DNA of 64,000 nt from Chryseomicrobium sp. FSL W7-1435 (GTDB lineage Bacteria > Bacillota > Bacilli > Bacillales_A > Planococcaceae). Each line of letters begins with the position of its first letter. The first letter of the stretch is position 1. The stretch spans positions 1,612,001-1,676,000 of the forward strand of contig NZ_CP151997.1 in NCBI RefSeq assembly GCF_038595005.1. The letters are read 5' to 3'. A program made the position numbers and the translations under genes. Below the pieces are notes generated by a model. It was not told the DNA's origin, made no database searches, and saw nothing but the letters and a program-made list of their open reading frames with translations. Below are positions 8,678 through 38,999 of the stretch, piece after piece.

Positions 8678-8732
8678 AAATTTACATTCTGCTGGCGATG
8701 TCAGAATGTACTGGAGAGAAGGAGCCGAATCG

Positions 8733-9725
8733 GTGACAGAAATTAACCCGATTGAACAAAAGGGAAGAGAGCTTTTAGAAAAAGCTATTTTATTTGAAGC
8801 GTCAGACCTTCACTTCATACCTTTAGAAAAAGACTATCAAATTTTATTTAGACGTCATCAGCAAATGTATGATGCCGGATATCTTCCGCATGCATATGGT
8901 GATCGGATCGTTACCTACTTCAAATTTTTATCTTCACTTGATATTACGAATAAACGTAATCCCCAAAGCGGTGCATTCCACATGCCCATCTTATCAACCA
9001 CGTATCACTTTAGAGTCTCGACACTTACTTCCGTATCACGTCGAGAAAGTTTGGTACTCCGCATAGCAAAACCCAATCTAGTCGTACCCATTGATGAAAT
9101 CAGTTTACAAGCTGGTCAGGCCAGTAAACTCTGTGAAATTGTGTCTGCTCGGCAAGGTTTAGTTTTACTTATTGGACCAACAGGTTCTGGTAAGTCTACG
9201 ACTATGTACGCGTTGACAAAATACTGCTCAACTGAGCTTGCTCGTCACGTTATTTCTTTAGAGGATCCTGTAGAGATCAGTCAAGACTATCTCCTGCAGG
9301 TTCAAGTAAATGAAGGTGCAGGATTGACGTATTCCACTGGATTACGTGCCATACTCCGCCATTCTCCAGATGTCATATTAATAGGTGAAATCCGTGATAA
9401 GGAGACTGCCAAAATCGCGATTGAAGCAGCTCTAACAGGTCACTTGGTCATTTCTACCATTCATGCCAAAGATTCTGTGGGTGCCATCTATAGACTTTTA
9501 GATCTGGGTATCTCGATCGAGGAAATCGAGCAAGTTTCTAGGGCCTATATTTCTCAGCGTCTTTTGATACGGTCAGGTCCCAGCCATTCTCTTGGAGCAG
9601 TTTATGAGATTGTAGAAGCTGAAGAAATCCGAGCGCTAGTTGAGGCCATTCATTCCGGAAAACGACCAGAGTTGCCGCGTGACCTAACTCTTGCTTACCA
9701 AATTGAAAAAGCGGTTAGAGGATAG
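8733..9725 (+). CDS. comGA: Competence pseudopilus ATPase ComGA
   Basis: ComGA is the cytoplasmic hexameric ATPase that drives assembly of the transformation pseudopilus. It carries Walker A GPTGSGKSTT, the Asp box around ISLEDPVE, Walker B VILIGEIRD and the His box TGHLVISTIHA, all intact, so it is a working type II secretion ATPase. The start is GTG at 8733, eight bases after an AGAAGGAG site; the in-frame ATG at 8706 lies before that site. The product is 330 residues, somewhat shorter than the 356 of B. subtilis. The comG order ABCDEFG follows without gaps. Confidence 0.95.
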   Translation: MTEINPIEQKGRELLEKAILFEASDLHFIPLEKDYQILFRRHQQMYDAGYLPHAYGDRIVTYFKFLSSLDITNKRNPQSGAFHMPILSTTYHFRVSTLTSVSRRESLVLRIAKPNLVVPIDEISLQAGQASKLCEIVSARQGLVLLIGPTGSGKSTTMYALTKYCSTELARHVISLEDPVEISQDYLLQVQVNEGAGLTYSTGLRAILRHSPDVILIGEIRDKETAKIAIEAALTGHLVISTIHAKDSVGAIYRLLDLGISIEEIEQVSRAYISQRLLIRSGPSHSLGAVYEIVEAEEIRALVEAIHSGKRPELPRDLTLAYQIEKAVRG

Positions 9726-9732
9726 CGGGAAA

Positions 9733-10734
9733 GTGAAACCCATACACCCATCTAATCAAGCTGAGTTTCTCGAAAAACTTGTTACCACAGTCGGTGAAGG
9801 GATTTCCATTACGGATGCCATGTTAGTTTTGGGACCTTTCTACTTAAAACAACTGGAACTGGAGAGGCTCACACTCCTGTTTGAGGAAGGGAATGAACTT
9901 TCCACCAGTTTTCACTATTTAGGCTACTCCAAGACTATTGTGGAATCGATTAAACTTGCAGAGATTCATGGACAAATGACGCAAGTCTTCTCACGAACAG
10001 CTAAACAACTCAAGAACCAACAAGCACTTAAAAAAGAAGCTGTGAAAACGTTAAGCTATCCCGTTGGTCTTTTATTCTTCATGTCAGTTTTATTTATTGT
10101 ATTTAAACTCTTTTTCCTACCCATATTCTTACCGATTATTGAAAGGGCAAACCCAGATGCTGTGTCACGTGTTCAGCTCATATTTTCTCTGCCTTTTTAT
10201 ATGATTATTGGTTGTCTAAGCATTGCTGTAGTAAGTGGGATTGGAATCGTCGTCACTAAATTTAGTAGATCTGATAAGTGGATATTAAACTTTCGTAGCT
10301 ATCCACTTATTCGAAGCGGCCAAAATGCAATAGCCGGTTATTCCATTTCTAAAGAACTAGCCCTGCTGTTAGAGAGTGGCTTTACAATAGCTCAGTCACT
10401 TATGTACTTATCTACTAGTCACTCACTACTTGTTAGGCAAGCTTCTATGTCGACTCTCAGCTATTTACAACGTGGAGAAAGTTTTTCACAAGCCATGAAA
10501 CTAGCAGGATGGTTTCCGAAAGCAATGATTCGTTATGTAGAGCATGGCGAAATTCATGGCTATGTTGCAAAGGAGCTTCAGCTTTATCAATATTTTACGA
10601 TTGAAAACCTTCAAAAGAGAGTATCATTTTTTATTGCTGTTGCTCAACCTGTCCTTTTTTTAATCATTGGAGCGCTCGTGATAAGTGCTTACTTGTCTTT
10701 GATGCTTCCCATGTACAACTTAATCTCACTATAG
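9733..10734 (+). CDS. comGB: Competence pseudopilus membrane protein ComGB
   Basis: ComGB is the polytopic inner platform protein of the pseudopilus, a type II secretion F-domain protein. Two T2SSF repeats and three strong hydrophobic segments (middle of the protein twice and one at the C-terminus) are visible. The start is uncertain: GTG 9733 has an AGAGGA site in front of it and avoids most overlap with comGA; TTG 9691 in the same frame would add 14 residues and overlap comGA by 35 bases. The product from GTG is 333 residues, close to the family length. Confidence 0.9.
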   Translation: MKPIHPSNQAEFLEKLVTTVGEGISITDAMLVLGPFYLKQLELERLTLLFEEGNELSTSFHYLGYSKTIVESIKLAEIHGQMTQVFSRTAKQLKNQQALKKEAVKTLSYPVGLLFFMSVLFIVFKLFFLPIFLPIIERANPDAVSRVQLIFSLPFYMIIGCLSIAVVSGIGIVVTKFSRSDKWILNFRSYPLIRSGQNAIAGYSISKELALLLESGFTIAQSLMYLSTSHSLLVRQASMSTLSYLQRGESFSQAMKLAGWFPKAMIRYVEHGEIHGYVAKELQLYQYFTIENLQKRVSFFIAVAQPVLFLIIGALVISAYLSLMLPMYNLISL

Positions 10735-10747
10735 GAGGAAATTATAT

Positions 10748-11056
10748 ATGAAACGTATTCGAAATGAGTCAGGTTTTACATTAGTCGAAATGATGATTGT
10801 GTTGCTCATTATTTCTGTATTGTTGCTAATCACTATACCTAACATTGCTCGTCATACAGCTACCATCGATGAGAAGGGATGCGAGGCTTACCGAACTATG
10901 CTAAGTTCTCAGATTGAAGCTTACAAACTGGAGTTCAAAGCAAAGCCTGAACTTGCAGATTTGCAAACTGAAGGTTTTGTAAAAGAAGGCGATCTTGTTT
11001 GTCCAAACGGTACAGAGCTTACTATTGTTGCAGGCGTAATTAGTGAAAAGCCTTAA
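10748..11056 (+). CDS. comGC: Major competence pseudopilin ComGC
   Basis: This is the main subunit of the transformation pseudopilus. A type IV prepilin signal is present: basic leader, then the peptidase site SGFTLVEMM (cut between G9 and F10) and a hydrophobic helix to about residue 30. Two cysteines (C45 and C85) can make the disulfide that ComGC proteins form. ATG 10748 follows GGAGGAAAT. It is 102 residues and overlaps comGD by 14 bases. Confidence 0.96.
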   Translation: MKRIRNESGFTLVEMMIVLLIISVLLLITIPNIARHTATIDEKGCEAYRTMLSSQIEAYKLEFKAKPELADLQTEGFVKEGDLVCPNGTELTIVAGVISEKP

Positions 11057-11477
11057 TTCACAAAACGGGTTCACTCTTTTAGAAGTCATCGTCGTGTTAG
11101 CAGGACTAAGTGTTTTGATAGCAAGCGCTACAATTTATGGCCAATATAACTATTTGAAACTTGAAGAGTCCCATTTTTTCACATTATTACAGCAAGACAT
11201 TCTACTAGCTCAAAGTTTAGCAATAGAGAGAAAACAAGTCACTTATGTAAAGTTTTCCTCAGAACAACGCAAGTACACTATCACCACTAAATTTGAGGCC
11301 TATAAGACCGTCAGTTTTCCTCAATCGGTTCAATACAAGAACAATTCATTTTTCTCGACGATTGAATATACGCCTGCCGGTACTATTACATCATTTGGTA
11401 CGGCTTACTTCTCGACATCCGATGTGGATAAGAAGCTAACGGCTTTTATCGGAAGGGGGCGGGTGCAAATTGACTGA
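11043..11477 (+). CDS. comGD: Minor competence pseudopilin ComGD
   Basis: A 144-residue minor pseudopilin with the prepilin motif NGFTLLEVIVV near the N-terminus followed by the hydrophobic helix. The globular part (about 35-144) is beta-rich as in GspH-like minor pilins. Start GTG 11043 lies within comGC, so the two are translationally coupled; the end overlaps comGE by 8 bases. Confidence 0.92.
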   Translation: MKSLNSQNGFTLLEVIVVLAGLSVLIASATIYGQYNYLKLEESHFFTLLQQDILLAQSLAIERKQVTYVKFSSEQRKYTITTKFEAYKTVSFPQSVQYKNNSFFSTIEYTPAGTITSFGTAYFSTSDVDKKLTAFIGRGRVQID

Positions 11478-22386: not shown

Positions 22387-22947
22387 ATGATTTCAGTAAA
22401 TGATTTTAAAACAGGCTTAACCATCGTTTTTGACGGTAACTTATACCGTGTAATTGAATTCCAACACGTTAAACCTGGTAAAGGCGCTGCATTTGTTCGT
22501 TCAAAACTGCGTAACCTTCGCAGTGGTTCAGTCAATGAACGTACGTTCCGTGCGGGCGAAAAAGTAGAGAAAGCCCAAATTGATACACGCAAAATGCAAT
22601 ATCTGTATGCAAATGGTGATATGCACGTATTTATGGATACAGAGAGCTACGATCAAGTAGAGCTTCCTGAAAACTCTATCGAATATGAATTGAAGTTCTT
22701 GAAAGAAAACATGGAGCTTAGCATTGTTCAATACCAAGGAGAAACACTTGGTATCGAGTTGCCGAACACAGTTGAATTAGAAGTTATCGAAACTGAACCA
22801 GGTATCAAAGGCGACACTTCTGGTGGTGGATCGAAAACGGCTAAGTTAGAGACTGGCGTTATGGTTACTGTGCCATTATTCATTAATGTTGGCGATCGAT
22901 TAATCGTTAATACAACTGAAGGTTCATACGTATCTCGCGCACAATAA
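22387..22947 (+). CDS. efp: Elongation factor P
   Basis: EF-P enters the ribosomal E-site and rescues ribosomes stalled at polyproline. The 186 residues form the three usual beta domains. The tip loop KPGKGAAF places lysine 32, the residue modified in B. subtilis with 5-aminopentanol. The ATG follows TAGGAGGAAATCAC, 11 bases after the peptidase gene. A hairpin at 23009-23056 ends the unit. Confidence 0.97.
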
Positions 22948-23008
22948 CTCTACAGTTATGAACTATTGCCGATTTACAAAAACTAAATCCCAACAAGATT
23001 TAACATCG

Positions 23009-23060
23009 AAAATCAGTAGTTTCTCTAGAATTTATTCAAGAGAATCTGCTGATTTCTTTT
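23009..23060 (+). terminator. Terminator after efp; member of a repeated hairpin
   Basis: AAATCAGTAG (23010-23019) pairs with CTGCTGATTT (23046-23055) and TTCTCT with AGAGAA inside, followed by CTTTTG. The sequence is closely related to the hairpin after tlyA (34700-34745), so both are copies of one element. Confidence 0.8.
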
Positions 23061-23078
23061 GTTTCAAGCTCTTTTTTA

Positions 23079-23107
23079 GTCTATAGCATCCAATTTGCTC
23101 ATACAGT
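23079..23107 (+). promoter_or_regulatory. Possible sigma-E promoter of the spoIIIA operon
   Basis: GTCTATA (23079-23085) and CATACAGT (23100-23107) with a 14-base spacer resemble the sigma-E pattern (GTCATATT and CATACAnT). It lies 22 bases before spoIIIAC, where mother-cell control is expected. Confidence 0.5.
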
Positions 23108-23128
23108 ACTAACAAAGGAGGTAGCTGG

Positions 23129-23335
23129 GTGGGCTTTGATGACATCTTCAGAATGGCAGGAGTAGGCATCCTTCTTGCACTCCTTCACGTGTTCCTCGAA
23201 CTTAACAATAAAAGTGAATACTCATTTTTTATTTCGGTCACTGCATTCATTTACTTTTCAATCGAATTGTTGCGCATGCTCAAACTATTTTTTGAAGTGA
23301 TTGAAGAGTATTTGTTGTGGCTTTATGAGATGTGA
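23129..23335 (+). CDS. spoIIIAC: Stage III sporulation protein AC
   Basis: A 68-residue, two-helix membrane protein with a conserved N-terminus (DDIFRMAGVGILLALLH) and the same length as B. subtilis SpoIIIAC. SpoIIIA proteins form the mother-cell half of the channel across the engulfed forespore membranes. GTG 23129 follows AAAGGAGGT. It is the first gene of the operon here; spoIIIAA and spoIIIAB, which precede it in other spore formers, are absent from the 181 bases after efp. The stop overlaps the start of the next gene. Confidence 0.88.
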   Translation: MGFDDIFRMAGVGILLALLHVFLELNNKSEYSFFISVTAFIYFSIELLRMLKLFFEVIEEYLLWLYEM

Positions 23336-23685
23336 TGCCAAGTCTTTGGGCGACAATCGGTCTTGTCTTTTTTTATATTCTGCTGTCTCAAATCATTCGA
23401 CAGCTAGTACCGTCCGTTAGTTTTTATTTACAAACTTCCATGTTGTTTCTCGTTGTCACCATTACCATTCAATCTACCAAGCCTCTCGTCGAAATGGCTA
23501 TTGAAGCAGTGCCGATAGATCTTTTACCCATAGTTAAAGGTTTACTTGTAACGACATTTTTTTACTTAGCATTGGATTTTTTGGCTTCCTATTTAGACGC
23601 GTTAGGGGAAACTGTGCTTTCAAAACTCATAGTGCTGTTGTTTAAACTTTCTCTCATTCATTACTGGATACAATTACTCCTATAA
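23332..23685 (+). CDS. spoIIIAD: Stage III sporulation protein AD (divergent)
   Basis: A 117-residue protein with four hydrophobic segments and little else. Position directly behind spoIIIAC (4-base overlap, GTGA; an ATG at 23335 is the alternative start) and before the AE-like gene, as well as the size, identify it as SpoIIIAD. The sequence itself is only weakly similar to B. subtilis SpoIIIAD (133 residues), and the N-terminal part is shorter. It is a predicted channel membrane component. Confidence 0.72.
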   Translation: MMPSLWATIGLVFFYILLSQIIRQLVPSVSFYLQTSMLFLVVTITIQSTKPLVEMAIEAVPIDLLPIVKGLLVTTFFYLALDFLASYLDALGETVLSKLIVLLFKLSLIHYWIQLLL

Positions 23686-23698
23686 ATGCGGTGACAGC

Positions 23699-24577
23699 TT
23701 GTCCAACTGGCTACCAATCGAACTTTTAACAACTTTACTCGTGCTTACATGTACGCATCAATTGTTATCATTTGTTCATCCAAATGCAAAAAAACTTTCA
23801 GAGTTTCTCTACTTTCTGTTGGTTGTGTATATGATGATTCGCTACTTTTCTGGAATCTTAACAACCATCCAGACAATACGTGAGGTCCTCAATCCTCTCT
23901 GGTCAGCTATTGTGCCCTTTCTATTAGTGGTATCCCAATTATTTGTGTCCGTCCTTTTTCCTTTGGCGCCATTTGCGGCTGTCGCTTACAGTTTGTTCAG
24001 TCTTCAGTTTTTAGAATCCATCATCTATCCACTGCTCCTTTTTACAACCAGCATTACTCTGTTGAACCGATTGGACTCTGAGTCTAGCTTCACTCGACTC
24101 ACGGAACTGGCACGTAATCTTCTCATTTTCTTATTGTTTCTACTGTTTACCTTATTTACAGCCATTATCACTGCAAGTGGCGGGTTAAGCTGGTTGCTGA
24201 TGGATCAACTAAAACCGTCACTAGTTTCTGTTGTTCAAAACTCTATTCCGCTTGTAGGCTCGTTATTTACGGAGGGACTGTCTACTGTCAAAGGCCTCGC
24301 TTCTTTGTCTGCATTAACGTTAGGGACCACTGCCTCTATAACCATTGGAGGCATGGTCGCCATTCCGCTAGGTAAACTCCTGTTAGATGCATTTGTGTTG
24401 CGTGCAAGCGGCGCAATTCTAGTCATCATTGGCAGTGAGAGAGTGGGGGCCTTGCTAGACGACTTAGGTAAATTGCTGTTTATCATGTGTGCCTGGTTTC
24501 TGTTTATGATTGCAGTCATATTAGTGCTGTTATTATATTGTCTAGTATTGTTCCAGTTGACCGTAGGTAGTGCCTGA
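23699..24577 (+). CDS. spoIIIAE: Stage III sporulation protein AE, N-terminally short
   Basis: A 292-residue polytopic membrane protein with seven or so hydrophobic helices. The C-terminal two thirds align by pattern with SpoIIIAE (for example a long central stretch ending in a segment like NSIPLVGSLFTEGLSTV, comparable to the family's GNFIPVLG...). B. subtilis SpoIIIAE is 399 residues with a signal peptide and an outer domain of about 100 residues in front of the first membrane helix; that whole part is missing here. TTG 23699 is the start. The stop overlaps the next start (ATGA). Confidence 0.78.
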   Translation: MSNWLPIELLTTLLVLTCTHQLLSFVHPNAKKLSEFLYFLLVVYMMIRYFSGILTTIQTIREVLNPLWSAIVPFLLVVSQLFVSVLFPLAPFAAVAYSLFSLQFLESIIYPLLLFTTSITLLNRLDSESSFTRLTELARNLLIFLLFLLFTLFTAIITASGGLSWLLMDQLKPSLVSVVQNSIPLVGSLFTEGLSTVKGLASLSALTLGTTASITIGGMVAIPLGKLLLDAFVLRASGAILVIIGSERVGALLDDLGKLLFIMCAWFLFMIAVILVLLLYCLVLFQLTVGSA

Positions 24578-24723
24578 TGATTTTTTTACAAACAATGCTA
24601 CTTTTATATGTTTTAACGGAATGTCTCTGTCTACTTTTACCAGATCGCGAACAAGAGTTGCATACGATGAAAAAATTGCTGGTGTTATTATTTATTTTCA
24701 TATTTATCCGAGGTCTCTCATAA
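24577..24723 (+). CDS. spoIIIAF: SpoIIIAF-like membrane microprotein
   Basis: This 48-residue frame is ATG 24577 to TAA 24723, coupled to the AE stop by ATGA. It has two hydrophobic helices (about 2-21 and 33-45) linked by PDREQELHTMKK. The pattern matches the two N-terminal membrane helices of SpoIIIAF, which in B. subtilis is 206 residues with a cytoplasm-distal ring-building domain after the helices. That domain is absent, and the next gene begins 15 bases later. The frame has no interruption, so it may be a working reduced subunit rather than debris. Confidence 0.65.
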   Translation: MIFLQTMLLLYVLTECLCLLLPDREQELHTMKKLLVLLFIFIFIRGLS

Positions 24724-24738
24724 CGTATTGTAGGTGAC

Positions 24739-25095
24739 GTGTTGCAGCCAAAACAAAAGCTTGCTCTATTGCTCGGCGCACTGTTGATTTTAGCAATTGG
24801 CTTTATCACTACTGATCAACCCGATAAGACAGCGGAACAACCACTTGCTACAGCCTTGATGCAAATGGAAGGGGTGGGCAGAGTGGAACTTTACATCCAT
24901 TATCCTGAGAAGTCCGCTAGTTTTTTTGATGTTGCAGATAATTCATCAGCACCTGTAGGAGTTCTTGTCATAGCGGAAGGAGCCAACCAGCCATCTACCA
25001 GGCACAAATTACGTCAGACTGTCGCATCCGTTCTCCAAATCTCACAACATCGCATTCAAGTAGAACCTATGGAAGGAGATTTTATTGACCCCTAA
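24739..25095 (+). CDS. spoIIIAG: Stage III sporulation protein AG, shortened
   Basis: A 118-residue protein with one N-terminal membrane helix (about 8-24) and a small ring-building domain: MEGVGRVELYIHYPE, then PVGVLVIAEGA, then QTVASVLQISQHRIQVEP. These match the core of SpoIIIAG. B. subtilis SpoIIIAG is 229 residues and has a long insertion between the first two strands that makes the beta ring of its 30-subunit channel; here only about 20 residues join them. GTG 24739 (a TTG at 24742 is also possible) starts it; it overlaps the next gene by 11 bases. Confidence 0.82.
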   Translation: MLQPKQKLALLLGALLILAIGFITTDQPDKTAEQPLATALMQMEGVGRVELYIHYPEKSASFFDVADNSSAPVGVLVIAEGANQPSTRHKLRQTVASVLQISQHRIQVEPMEGDFIDP

Positions 25096-25603
25096 AAAAC
25101 GTATAGTTTGGTTTATGACATTGCTCAGCCTTGGTGCCGTATTCTCCGTTTATGTATTGAACGATCGTCCAGATCCCTTCAGTGGTATCGTGTTGTTTGA
25201 GGACGAAGCTGCCGTAGATGGCATCAATCAAAATCAACCCGTAAGTTATCCGACAAACGAAAAATTTCAAGAGATGCGCATGGAAGTAGAATCGCAAAGA
25301 AGTCAGTTGAGAGAACAACTCACACAAAAAATCGGCTCACCAGAGTTTACAGCTGAAGAAAAAAATGAAGCGTATCAACAGCTAGAGAATCTCACTAACC
25401 AAGATTCTACTGAGGCCTTGCTTGAACTAGTAATCACTTCACTCGGGTACCCAGAAGCATTGGTGCGCATCCAAGAAGATCAAGTGCTGGTTCATGTTTC
25501 TGCTGAGATGCTGGCACCAGAAGAAGCAAATGACATTATTTATGCAGTGAAAAAAGAATACCCTGAGGCTGCAAAAGTACAAGTCGATTATTCAACTTAT
25601 TAA
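25085..25603 (+). CDS. spoIIIAH: Stage III sporulation protein AH
   Basis: A 172-residue protein with a membrane helix at about 7-24 and a YscJ/FliF-like ring domain at the C-terminus (TSLGYPEALVRIQEDQVLVHVS). SpoIIIAH spans the intermembrane space and binds SpoIIQ from the forespore. The linker has a predicted coiled coil (about 58-110, rich in E, Q, R). B. subtilis SpoIIIAH is 218 residues; the difference is mainly in the linker. TTG 25085 lies behind a GAAGGAGAT site. It is the last gene of the operon. Confidence 0.88.
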   Translation: MTPKKRIVWFMTLLSLGAVFSVYVLNDRPDPFSGIVLFEDEAAVDGINQNQPVSYPTNEKFQEMRMEVESQRSQLREQLTQKIGSPEFTAEEKNEAYQQLENLTNQDSTEALLELVITSLGYPEALVRIQEDQVLVHVSAEMLAPEEANDIIYAVKKEYPEAAKVQVDYSTY

Positions 25604-25766: not shown

Positions 25767-26252
25767 ATGAAAATTCAAGAAATTCGAGAAATCATAAAAT
25801 TAATGGATCAATCTTCACTAGATGAATTTGTATTTGAAGCAGACGGTACTAAATTAAAACTTAAAAAGCATGGTGTAGGCACAGGCACTACTCAAAAAGT
25901 AGTAGAACAGCCATCACAAGTTACAGCTGCAGTTGAAGCATCAACGCCAGCCGTCTCGCAAACATCTGTTGTAGAAGAAAAAGAAGTTGCAGCTCCAGAA
26001 CAAAAAGAACAAAACAACTACAAAACAATCACTTCACCAATGGTAGGAACTTTTTATGAATCTTCTTCTCCGGACGCAGCAGCTTATGTCAAAGTTGGCG
26101 ATAAAGTCTCAGCTAGTTCAGTAGTTTGTATCGTTGAAGCTATGAAACTATTTAATGAAATTGAGGCTGAAATTGATGGTGAGATCGTTGAGATTCTCGT
26201 CAAAGATGGACAGCTTGTTGAATACGGCCAGCCACTATTTTCTATTAAATAA
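25767..26252 (+). CDS. accB: Acetyl-CoA carboxylase biotin carboxyl carrier protein
   Basis: AccB carries carboxybiotin between biotin carboxylase and carboxyltransferase in the first step of fatty-acid synthesis. The 161 residues have an N-terminal helical part, an Ala/Pro/Glu-rich linker (about 35-85) and the biotinyl domain with EAMKLFNEI, lysine 127 being the biotin site. The ATG follows GGGGAG. accC follows after 21 bases. The spoIIIA-accB-accC order is the B. subtilis one. Confidence 0.97.
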   Translation: MKIQEIREIIKLMDQSSLDEFVFEADGTKLKLKKHGVGTGTTQKVVEQPSQVTAAVEASTPAVSQTSVVEEKEVAAPEQKEQNNYKTITSPMVGTFYESSSPDAAAYVKVGDKVSASSVVCIVEAMKLFNEIEAEIDGEIVEILVKDGQLVEYGQPLFSIK

Positions 26253-37051: not shown

Positions 37052-37088
37052 TCACCTCTTTTGAAGCACACTACTTCAAAGGAGGTGA
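37052..37088 (+). promoter_or_regulatory. Hairpin that hides the spoIVB ribosome binding site
   Basis: CACCTCTTTTGAAG (37053-37066) pairs with CTTCAAAGGAGGTG (37074-37087), 14 bp with one G-U pair, plus T37052-A37088; the loop is 7 bases. The whole AAAGGAGGTG site is inside the right arm. T-rich sequence follows, so it could also act as a weak recN terminator. Confidence 0.75.
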
Positions 37089-37096
37089 ATTTTATT

Positions 37097-37993
37097 TTGG
37101 GATCCTGGAAGATAGCTGTTTTTATACTTTGCTTGTTGGTACCGATTCCTGTCTCAGCAGCCATCGTCCCTTTAGGTGAGTCGATTGAAATCGAAATTCC
37201 GCTTGAGGAAATGATTGTCGTTGAAGATTTATCTTTGTGTAAAACGGCAATTAAACAGCAAGACAAAGTGTATTCGTTGCAGTCGAAAAAAGAATTAATA
37301 GAATTAATTAGTAAATCTTCCTCAACTTCTATACCACTTACTATGAGTCGAGATGGTGAACAGTATACATTAGCGTGTTCAGCTAAAGAACTGGAGCGCC
37401 TCCTACCAGTAGTGATTGATACAGTGGCAGGTGTCGGTACACTGACTTTTTTAGATACAACTAGTAACACGTACTATGCACTAGGGCATCCCATACAAGA
37501 ACATTTGACAGGAACAATCCCGACAGGTGCAAATGGCCATATTCGGTTAGCTGCTGTAGACAAAATCGTACGCTCCGCTCCTCAAAAACCAGGATTTAAA
37601 GTAACAAAGCCGCTTATCCCTTTGAGAGTGGCGCCAGTAACTCAAAACTCTCTATACGGCCTTCTGGGAGATGCATCATCAGTTGCAGCTTGGTTTCCAA
37701 GTCGTCAAGAAATCCAAGTCAGCAATCCAAGAAAAGGAAAAGCCACGTTAAGAACAGTAACTGCTGGAGATCAAGTAGAGGAGTATGATCTTGAGATAAC
37801 AGCTATCGACTCTGACAAATTTTTTGTCACGATAACGGATGAGCAATTACTCAACTTATCAGGTGGTATCCTCCAAGGAATGAGTGGAAGTCCCATTATT
37901 CAAAACAATCATTTGGTTGGAGCACTTACACATATGAACAGTGTTCAACCAACAAAAGGTGCAGCTATCTCCATTGATCAGATGAAAAAGTAG
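37097..37993 (+). CDS. spoIVB: SpoIVB peptidase, short form
   Basis: A serine peptidase (family S55) that, in sporulation, leaves the forespore and triggers SpoIVFB cleavage of pro-sigma-K. From TTG 37097, nine bases after AAAGGAGGTG, the product is 298 residues with an N-terminal signal/anchor. The catalytic set is complete: histidine in ALGHPI (131), aspartate in TITDEQLL (248) and serine in GMSGSPII (263). B. subtilis SpoIVB has about 425 residues; here about 80 N-terminal residues and much of the PDZ region are missing or eroded. An earlier TTG (37061) would place the start inside the hairpin. Confidence 0.88.
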   Translation: MGSWKIAVFILCLLVPIPVSAAIVPLGESIEIEIPLEEMIVVEDLSLCKTAIKQQDKVYSLQSKKELIELISKSSSTSIPLTMSRDGEQYTLACSAKELERLLPVVIDTVAGVGTLTFLDTTSNTYYALGHPIQEHLTGTIPTGANGHIRLAAVDKIVRSAPQKPGFKVTKPLIPLRVAPVTQNSLYGLLGDASSVAAWFPSRQEIQVSNPRKGKATLRTVTAGDQVEEYDLEITAIDSDKFFVTITDEQLLNLSGGILQGMSGSPIIQNNHLVGALTHMNSVQPTKGAAISIDQMKK

Positions 37994-38222: not shown

Positions 38223-38999
38223 ATGGAAAAAATTAAAGTAATGGTAGTGGATGATAATCGTGATTTAGTGACAACGATTGCTGACTATTTTAAAGAGCAT
38301 CCGTCGATTGAAGTCATTCACGTGGCTTTTAACGGCAAACAGTGTTTGGAACTTTTAGAAAAGCAAGTTCCTGATGTTTTGTTACTAGATATCATCATGC
38401 CTCATCTCGATGGCATTGCGGTCATGGATTATCTGCATAAAGAGCAGCTCTATCCAAATATGAAAGTCATCATGCTGACGGCGTTTGGCCAAGAAGAAGT
38501 GATGAAGCAAGCCGTTGATTTAGGAACTGCATACTTTATGTTAAAACCGTTTGAATTTGACCGCCTGGTTCAACAGATCCTTCAAGTCGCTGGTTCGGCT
38601 CAAAGCCAATCAGATGCGTCTCCTAGACGTCATGCGTTTAAGACAAAGGGAATCGACTTCACCATTACAAACGTTATTAAAGAGATTGGTGTACCTGCAC
38701 ATATCAAAGGGTATTCTTATTTGCGAGAAGCAATTCAAATGGTCTATCATGACATTGAACTACTTGGCTCTGTAACGAAAGTGCTCTATCCAGAAATCGC
38801 TAAAAAATTCGATACGACACCATCCCGTGTGGAAAGAGCGATTCGACATGCTATAGAAGTAGCATGGAACAGAGGGAATTATGAGACGATTTCACAGACA
38901 TTCGGTTACACAGTTCATCACCTTAAGAGCAAACCAACAAATTCAGAATTTATTGCCATGATTGCAGATAAGATTCGTTTAGAGAACATGGCAAGTTAG
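38223..38999 (+). CDS. spo0A: Sporulation master regulator Spo0A
   Basis: A 258-residue response regulator. Receiver: acidic pair D10/D11, phosphorylation site D56 in [10 protein letters not shown] switch near LTAFGQ and K108 in MLKPF, the same numbering as B. subtilis. The C-terminal DNA-binding domain has [21 protein letters not shown], the recognition helix region. The ATG follows GGGGATGAAGGA. An intact Spo0A argues that the strain descends from, or is, a spore former. Confidence 0.97.

Follow-up and report, generated by a model that had tools for sequence, protein, structure and literature searches.

The SpoIIIA–SpoIIQ complex of Bacillus subtilis is the natural reference for any spoIIIA operon, and its function is disputed: PMC12720343 sets an active pump, a passive channel and a zipper against one another, reports that calcein crosses both ways in B. 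subtilis, and describes the existence of a channel as debated. The ATPase motifs of SpoIIIAA (here AA, and so on for the other SpoIIIA proteins) are reported to be necessary for sigma G activity in B. subtilis, and AA and AB are described as resembling a type II secretion ATPase and F-type platform proteins (PMC2703783). Spore-forming Planococcaceae without AA, AB, AF, SpoIIM, SpoIIB and GerM have been listed with the mechanism left open, and Sporosarcina has been given the signature Spo0A, AC, AD, AE, AG, AH, SpoIIQ and DP (PMC7924749); in Lysinibacillus sphaericus C3-41, AA, AB, AD, AF and SpoIIM were noted as missing in 2012 by authors who distrusted the genome (PMC3533761). Here we describe the spoIIIA operon of Chryseomicrobium sp. 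FSL W7-1435 (the host), found in a stretch of 64,000 nucleotides of contig NZ_CP151997.1 (the window). With moderate confidence, we regard it as the Planococcaceae form of spoIIIA, an operon that probably encodes an ancestral, motorless SpoIIIA–SpoIIQ conduit or scaffold still used for sporulation.

The operon lies between efp and accB, in the order spoIIIAC-AD-AE-AF-AG-AH, and all six spoIIIA frames are open in the window sequence and its list of open reading frames:

22387-22947, + strand: efp, left-hand marker of the ancestral spoIIIA site
23129-23335, + strand: spoIIIAC, 68 amino acids, GTG start; PF06686 2.1e-6, TIGR02848 2e-7 (below cut-off)
23332-23685, + strand: spoIIIAD, 117 amino acids, GTG start; named from its place between AC and AE and a weak similarity to the AD of some relatives
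23699-24577, + strand: spoIIIAE, 292 amino acids, TTG start; PF09546 2.1e-21
24577-24723, + strand: spoIIIAF (mini-AF, a predicted membrane hairpin), 48 amino acids; named from its translation
24739-25095, + strand: spoIIIAG, 118 amino acids, GTG start; TIGR02830 1.1e-12 (below cut-off)
25085-25603, + strand: spoIIIAH, 172 amino acids, TTG start; PF12685 7.2e-21
25767-26252, + strand: accB, right-hand marker of the ancestral spoIIIA site; Biotin_lipoyl 6.2e-24

The spacing from efp to AC is 181 bases, and the genes that follow are tightly coupled: AC and AD overlap by 4 bases, AD and AE are 13 apart, AE and AF overlap by 1, AF and AG are 15 apart, and AG and AH overlap by 11. This arrangement, together with the open frames, is as an earlier sequence-only reading of the locus had described it. 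The AD of the window gave no relevant profile match, and its AH matched the solved SpoIIIAH chains 3uz0 (4.9e-13) and 3tuf (2e-12) in phmmer, both of B. subtilis origin. The best matches of Efp were those of C. aureum (96%) and C. excrementi (94%).

The motor and platform genes are absent from far more than this site. The sequence-only reading would have been refuted by AA and AB elsewhere in the genome; profile search of the complete 2.71-Mb host genome (2,710,361 bases in one contig, listed as 100% complete) found neither SpoIIIAA nor SpoIIIAB, and a B. subtilis control was positive for both. Nor is the pared-down operon special to this genome: across 261 Planococcaceae genomes SpoIIIAE was found by profile in 193 and SpoIIIAA in 0, and SpoIIIAB above cut-off was likewise found in 0 of 261, the B. 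subtilis control being positive for all three. Weak AB matches in three genomes (G044, G049 and G256) were rejected, being below cut-off, in frames of 340, 2955 and 464 amino acids, and away from the operon. In a class sample of 358 genomes, AA was found in 221 and AE in 243; the two match lists, compared by eye, agree outside the family except for G301, which has AA without AE, and G498, which has AE without AA and at a score below cut-off (4.5e-4), and the family members within this sample comprise 22 with AE and none with AA. SpoIIM was found in 0 of 15 family genomes, the host included, and in 6 of 6 class controls.

No remnants of AA or AB were detected in 52 efp–AC spacers, in a search whose positive controls worked. 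At the equivalent site Jeotgalibacillus campisalis carries AA (2.4e-77), AB (3.7e-30) and a 180-residue AF (1e-13); given this and the family-wide absence, the loss of AA and AB is most simply read from the sequences as a single event in an ancestor of the family. That loss is far older than the genus Chryseomicrobium. A candidate replacement ATPase gene at the site, an open reading frame of 335-338 amino acids in the efp–AC interval of Lysinibacillus, was rejected on its profile match in locus L035, which is to nitronate monooxygenase (PF03060, 3e-82). Genes of this kind were seen in the interval of five loci (L035, L036, L037, L102 and L104), the profile having been run on L035 and the others being alike by sequence. 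Separately, Lysinibacillus alkalisoli (L113, 5555-5956) has no spoIIIA gene between efp and accB, an observation confined to this site; the other Lysinibacillus loci examined carry the operon.

The remaining parts of the complex are trimmed throughout the family. We compared 60 family loci including that of the window, nine of them from named species and several repeating one genome; 59 of the 60 (all but L. alkalisoli) bear the operon. For conserved columns and sigma-E sites we used the 48 loci left after removing repeats (L009, L039, L040, L041, L042, L045, L048, L077, L079, L081 and L127). AC, AD, AE and AH are present in 59 of 59 operon-bearing loci, AD being called by place and length, and the family loci examined share the gene layout of the window. 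A hydrophobic frame of about 50 residues between AE and AG was also found in 59 of 59, chosen as the most hydrophobic stop-to-stop segment after AE and cut at 58 residues, a procedure biased towards membrane-like segments; when a usual start codon was required, a hydrophobic frame of 39-59 residues emerged in 40 of 51 loci, a wrong frame in one and no frame in the remaining 10. The profile of this mini-AF aligns to the N-terminal ~51 residues of full-length AF (hhalign, probability 93.9, E 1.6e-7), and its control comparisons with AC and with the AF soluble domain gave probabilities of 0.6 and 0.1. As predicted from its sequence, the host SpoIIIAF is a membrane hairpin only, with the soluble domain missing, which corrects the earlier reading in one respect: the protein has 48 residues against 180-235 for full-length AF in eight outgroup loci. 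The median omega (ratio of nonsynonymous to synonymous rates) of mini-AF is 0.103, and it therefore looks like a maintained gene rather than debris.

AG and AE are shortened as well. Family median lengths are 125 residues for AD, 303 for AE, 140 for AG and 180 for AH, and in the full operons of the outgroup AE has 389-422 (11 loci), AG 193-234 (12 loci) and AF 180-235 (8 loci). The family AG aligns with full AG at an hhalign probability of 99.1 but lacks about 30 residues that full AG carries as an insert within the ring-building domain; it consists of the bare ring-building-motif domain preceded by a hydrophobic stretch at the N terminus. In the predicted model of AG (mean predicted local distance difference test score, pLDDT, 72.5, with the high values mostly in the ring-building domain) the order of elements is helix-strand-strand-helix-strand. 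Its fold is matched best by FliF and by ring proteins of type III secretion, at E ~1e-3, with SpoIIIAG itself (5wc3) at rank 24. The matches also include the SpoIIIAF structure 6dcs (chains of 114-119 residues), presumably the AF soluble domain that the family has lost. AG is an ordinary open reading frame in 49 of the 60 loci, and nine of the 11 without one are Psychrobacillus-type; in those of this type that were inspected, AG can be read as an open frame, with no usual start near its beginning. In four of these (L005, L011, L012 and L029) mini-AF and AG are both open without a usual start, which suggests unusual start codons. The family AE aligns with columns 99-385 of full-length AE (hhalign probability 99.5), the first ~97 residues being missing; its model (mean pLDDT 77.0) gave no fold match at E <=0.001 and hence no mechanistic clue. 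We found no prior description of mini-AF or of the shortening of AG and AE in a literature search that covered mostly open-access papers, supplements excluded. The trimming of the remaining parts thus seems undescribed so far, and the loss of AA, AB, AF and SpoIIM is already published.

Selection has acted on all of these frames. From 19 hand-chosen pairs of relatives, with 13-19 usable per gene, median omega was 0.029 for AC (19 pairs), 0.102 for AD (18 pairs), 0.035 for AE, 0.193 for AG (13 pairs) and 0.095 for AH, the outliers being one AG pair at 0.646 with a synonymous rate (dS) of 0.03 and one AC pair at 0.252. Judged by these values, all six frames are evidently under purifying selection within the family. 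The range of medians across the six genes, 0.029-0.193, agrees with the earlier suggestion of selection rather than decay, and with the family-wide absence of AA and AB it upholds the idea of a SpoIIIA set without the ATPase. Within the genus, the comparison uses sister copies that sit in broken operons: the proportions of nonsynonymous and synonymous differences (pN/pS) are 0.107/0.795 for AC against the sister genome G014 (ratio 0.13) and 0.065/0.667 for the AH tail against C. aureum (ratio 0.10), with Efp at 0.04-0.06 for comparison. As these ratios indicate, AC and the AH tail have changed mainly at silent sites since the genus split.

The region directly upstream of spoIIIAC holds one candidate regulatory feature, called against the sigma-E consensus:

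23079-23107, + strand: candidate sigma-E-type promoter, GTCTATA, 14 bases, CATACAGT

The 14-base form is a reading by eye, and the site scan gives a 16-base spacer at equal score (12/15). Across the family, a hand count gives 31 of 48 loci in which the top-scoring sigma-E-like site has its end 15-25 bases upstream of AC, where about three would be expected if sites were evenly placed. The score of the window site is no better than that of shuffles (0.46), and it is the position of the site that supports the promoter call in the window.

The host retains the genes of the sporulation sigma cascade. Sigma F and sigma G are present, named by score and neighbours, and profiles matched sigma E, sigma K, SpoIIAA, SpoIIAB, SpoIID, SpoIIQ and SpoIVB, some below cut-off, with a weak match to SpoIIGA (5.7e-4). 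SpoIIQ has 229 amino acids and its gene adjoins spoIID (NF053738 1.2e-49, 169 bits, below the 250-bit cut-off). Two further sporulation genes lie in the window downstream of the operon:

37061-37993, + strand: spoIVB, 310 amino acids; TIGR02860 1.3e-41, below cut-off
38223-38999, + strand: spo0A, 258 amino acids; PF08769 1.0e-45

SpoIVA is an open frame of 489 amino acids in the host and survives only as fragments in three sister species, C. aureum (G012), C. excrementi (G013) and G014. No intact sigma F or G was found in these three, where the search gave fragments or other sigma factors, and most of their spoIIIA operon is gone. The spoIIIA site of C. aureum keeps the last 55 codons of AH only; that of C. 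excrementi keeps AH codons 6-33 and the final 20 codons of AG; that of G014 keeps a frame for AC, a portion of AD and a few terminal codons of AH. Because these remnants do not nest, the genus ancestor most likely still had the complete operon, and the three sisters lost it by separate deletions. In G014, spoIID and spoIIQ also remain in place as pieces (L173, 7809-8393), comprising SpoIID codons 258-303 and SpoIIQ codons 4-42 and 118-229. G105, a family genome without AE, has neither small acid-soluble spore protein (SASP) genes nor SpoIVA. Two side observations concern the same gene set. Each sister has one SASP-family match above cut-off despite the failure to find intact sigma F, sigma G or SpoIVA in it. 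In locus L169 (5954-8887), spoIIAA-spoIIAB-sigF is followed by a lysA-like gene with no spoVA genes there, an observation limited to that locus; in B. subtilis the spoVA genes follow sigF.

Taken with the retained sigma cascade, these features can be accommodated in one account. An ancestor of the family, probably after its split from the Jeotgalibacillus line, would have lost the motor and platform (the SpoIIIAA ATPase and SpoIIIAB), together with the greater part of AF, the insert of AG and the N-terminal portion of AE. The remaining AC, AD, AE, AF hairpin, and AG and AH rings would pair with SpoIIQ in the forespore membrane, and the trimmed complex would serve either as a passive conduit between mother cell and forespore or as a scaffold holding the two membranes. 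Such a conduit or scaffold would be sufficient for sustaining late forespore transcription, and the motor and platform would have become dispensable once the other parts had adapted. In the genus Chryseomicrobium the constraint on sporulation proteins would then have weakened or shifted, with three sister species losing the system. We infer in particular that the host sporulates, that its trimmed proteins form a complex, and that no ATPase is required for transport or holding. The broader proposal, that an entire family of genuine spore formers relies on a motorless complex with an AF hairpin, a bare FliF/SctJ-like AG ring and a passive conduit or scaffold, we hold to be an even call.

A number of observations weigh against the preferred account, and they come from B. 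subtilis as well as from the host lineage. In B. subtilis, deletion of AA, AB, AE or AG brings sporulation down to ~0.001-0.003% (PMC12720343), and since removing AA or AB nearly abolishes sporulation there, a replacement motor is possible in the host: another traffic ATPase may substitute for SpoIIIAA in trans, for example ComGA with ComGB, encoded ~12-14 kb upstream in the window:

8706-11477: comGA-comGD competence genes; ComGA T2SSE 4.3e-77, ComGB T2SSF 7.2e-28

These matches favour such a substitution, as does the described resemblance of SpoIIIAA and SpoIIIAB to proteins of this kind (PMC2703783). However, the asporogenous-looking sisters C. aureum and C. excrementi keep comGA-comGD in similar order, so that their retention is explained by competence, and the spoIIIA site itself showed no gene for an ATPase, what Lysinibacillus has there in addition being a nitronate monooxygenase gene; we consider a substitute motor improbable. 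The other adverse points would fit a leftover operon, in which sporulation has stopped or is about to stop and AC-AH are open only through the recency of the loss. The ratio of host divergence to that expected has a median of 1.98 for sporulation proteins (n=8) against a housekeeping median of 1.16 for 13 others (one-sided p 0.002), from three or four relatives per gene, with Spo0A counted among the others and an M24 peptidase (two relatives only) and AD left out. Six of the eight are unusually divergent (AC 2.21, SigG 2.20, SpoIVA 2.07, AE 2.03, SigF 1.93 and SpoIVB 1.53), and AH (1.23) and AG (0.96) are not. The host AE departs at 9 of 23 near-invariant family columns, where other loci depart at three at most, and the host AC at 6 of 26 conserved columns, where others depart at five at most; all six AC departures are common to G014, so the change in AC predates the split of these species. 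The host has a single SASP gene, whereas the 14 AE-bearing genomes searched from elsewhere in the family have 2-6, and two soil isolates nearest Chryseomicrobium species by 16S (98.09 and 97.27%) were scored as non-spore formers (PMC8085925).

With six of eight sporulation proteins diverging unusually fast, weakened sporulation in the host is possible; judged from sequence, the divergence may reflect relaxed or altered function and is no proof of decay. The three sisters, in each of which a different deletion has removed the bulk of the operon and none of which has an intact sigma F or G, also fit a leftover. The six frames, four sigma factors, SpoIIQ, SpoIID, SpoIVA and SpoIVB, however, are all open, AC and the AH tail have changed mostly silently since the genus split, and the loss of AA and AB is itself family-wide. 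The earlier suggestion of an early stage of loss thus holds in part: six of eight proteins diverge ~1.5-2.2 times more than expected and AE departs at 9 of 23 columns, but the loss of AA and AB is older than the genus and the frames remain open. On balance we think it possible, though unlikely, that the operon is a leftover. The sequence-only reading had further proposed that the genes have been put to another use. Nothing positive speaks for a non-sporulation purpose beyond the absence of the motor; the host keeps sigma F, E, G and K and other sporulation genes, the operon is broken in the three sisters without intact sigma F or G, the AE-less G105 is without SASP and SpoIVA, and a sigma-E-like site stands at a fixed distance before AC in 31 of 48 loci, all of which makes this alternative very improbable.

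If the account of a motorless conduit or scaffold is correct, the ATPase that is essential in B. subtilis would not be intrinsic to the function of the complex, and 'secretion machine' would be the wrong general model. A spore-forming family with no recognised motor part, whose remaining parts are under strong purifying selection, would amount to a natural experiment on the dispute between pump, channel and zipper, and the trimmed complex would offer a smaller target for structural studies. Chryseomicrobium itself gives a further glimpse of the system, with the operon whole in one species and disrupted by three distinct deletions in the sisters.

Set beside known systems, the host AG resembles the ring proteins FliF and SctJ/PrgK in predicted fold only, at E ~1e-3. 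The host lacks AA, AB and SpoIIM, as does L. sphaericus C3-41, but that genome was judged unreliable by its authors (PMC3533761), whereas the present family survey confirms that AA and AB are truly missing. The retained and missing spoIIIA genes of the host are identical to those of the Planococcaceae pattern in PMC7924749. Unlike our comparison, that source scores AF as absent, where mini-AF is found here in 59 of 59 operon-bearing loci; it scores AD as absent in five species, where 59 of 60 loci here have an AD frame, judged by its position and length; and one of its passages scores AG as absent in Planococcaceae. From the Q-A complex of B. subtilis the host differs in having no AA, AB, AF soluble domain, AG insert, AE N-terminal part or SpoIIM, and it shares with that system the AC-to-AH gene order ahead of accB, an AH related to the solved SpoIIIAH, and both SpoIIQ and SpoIID.

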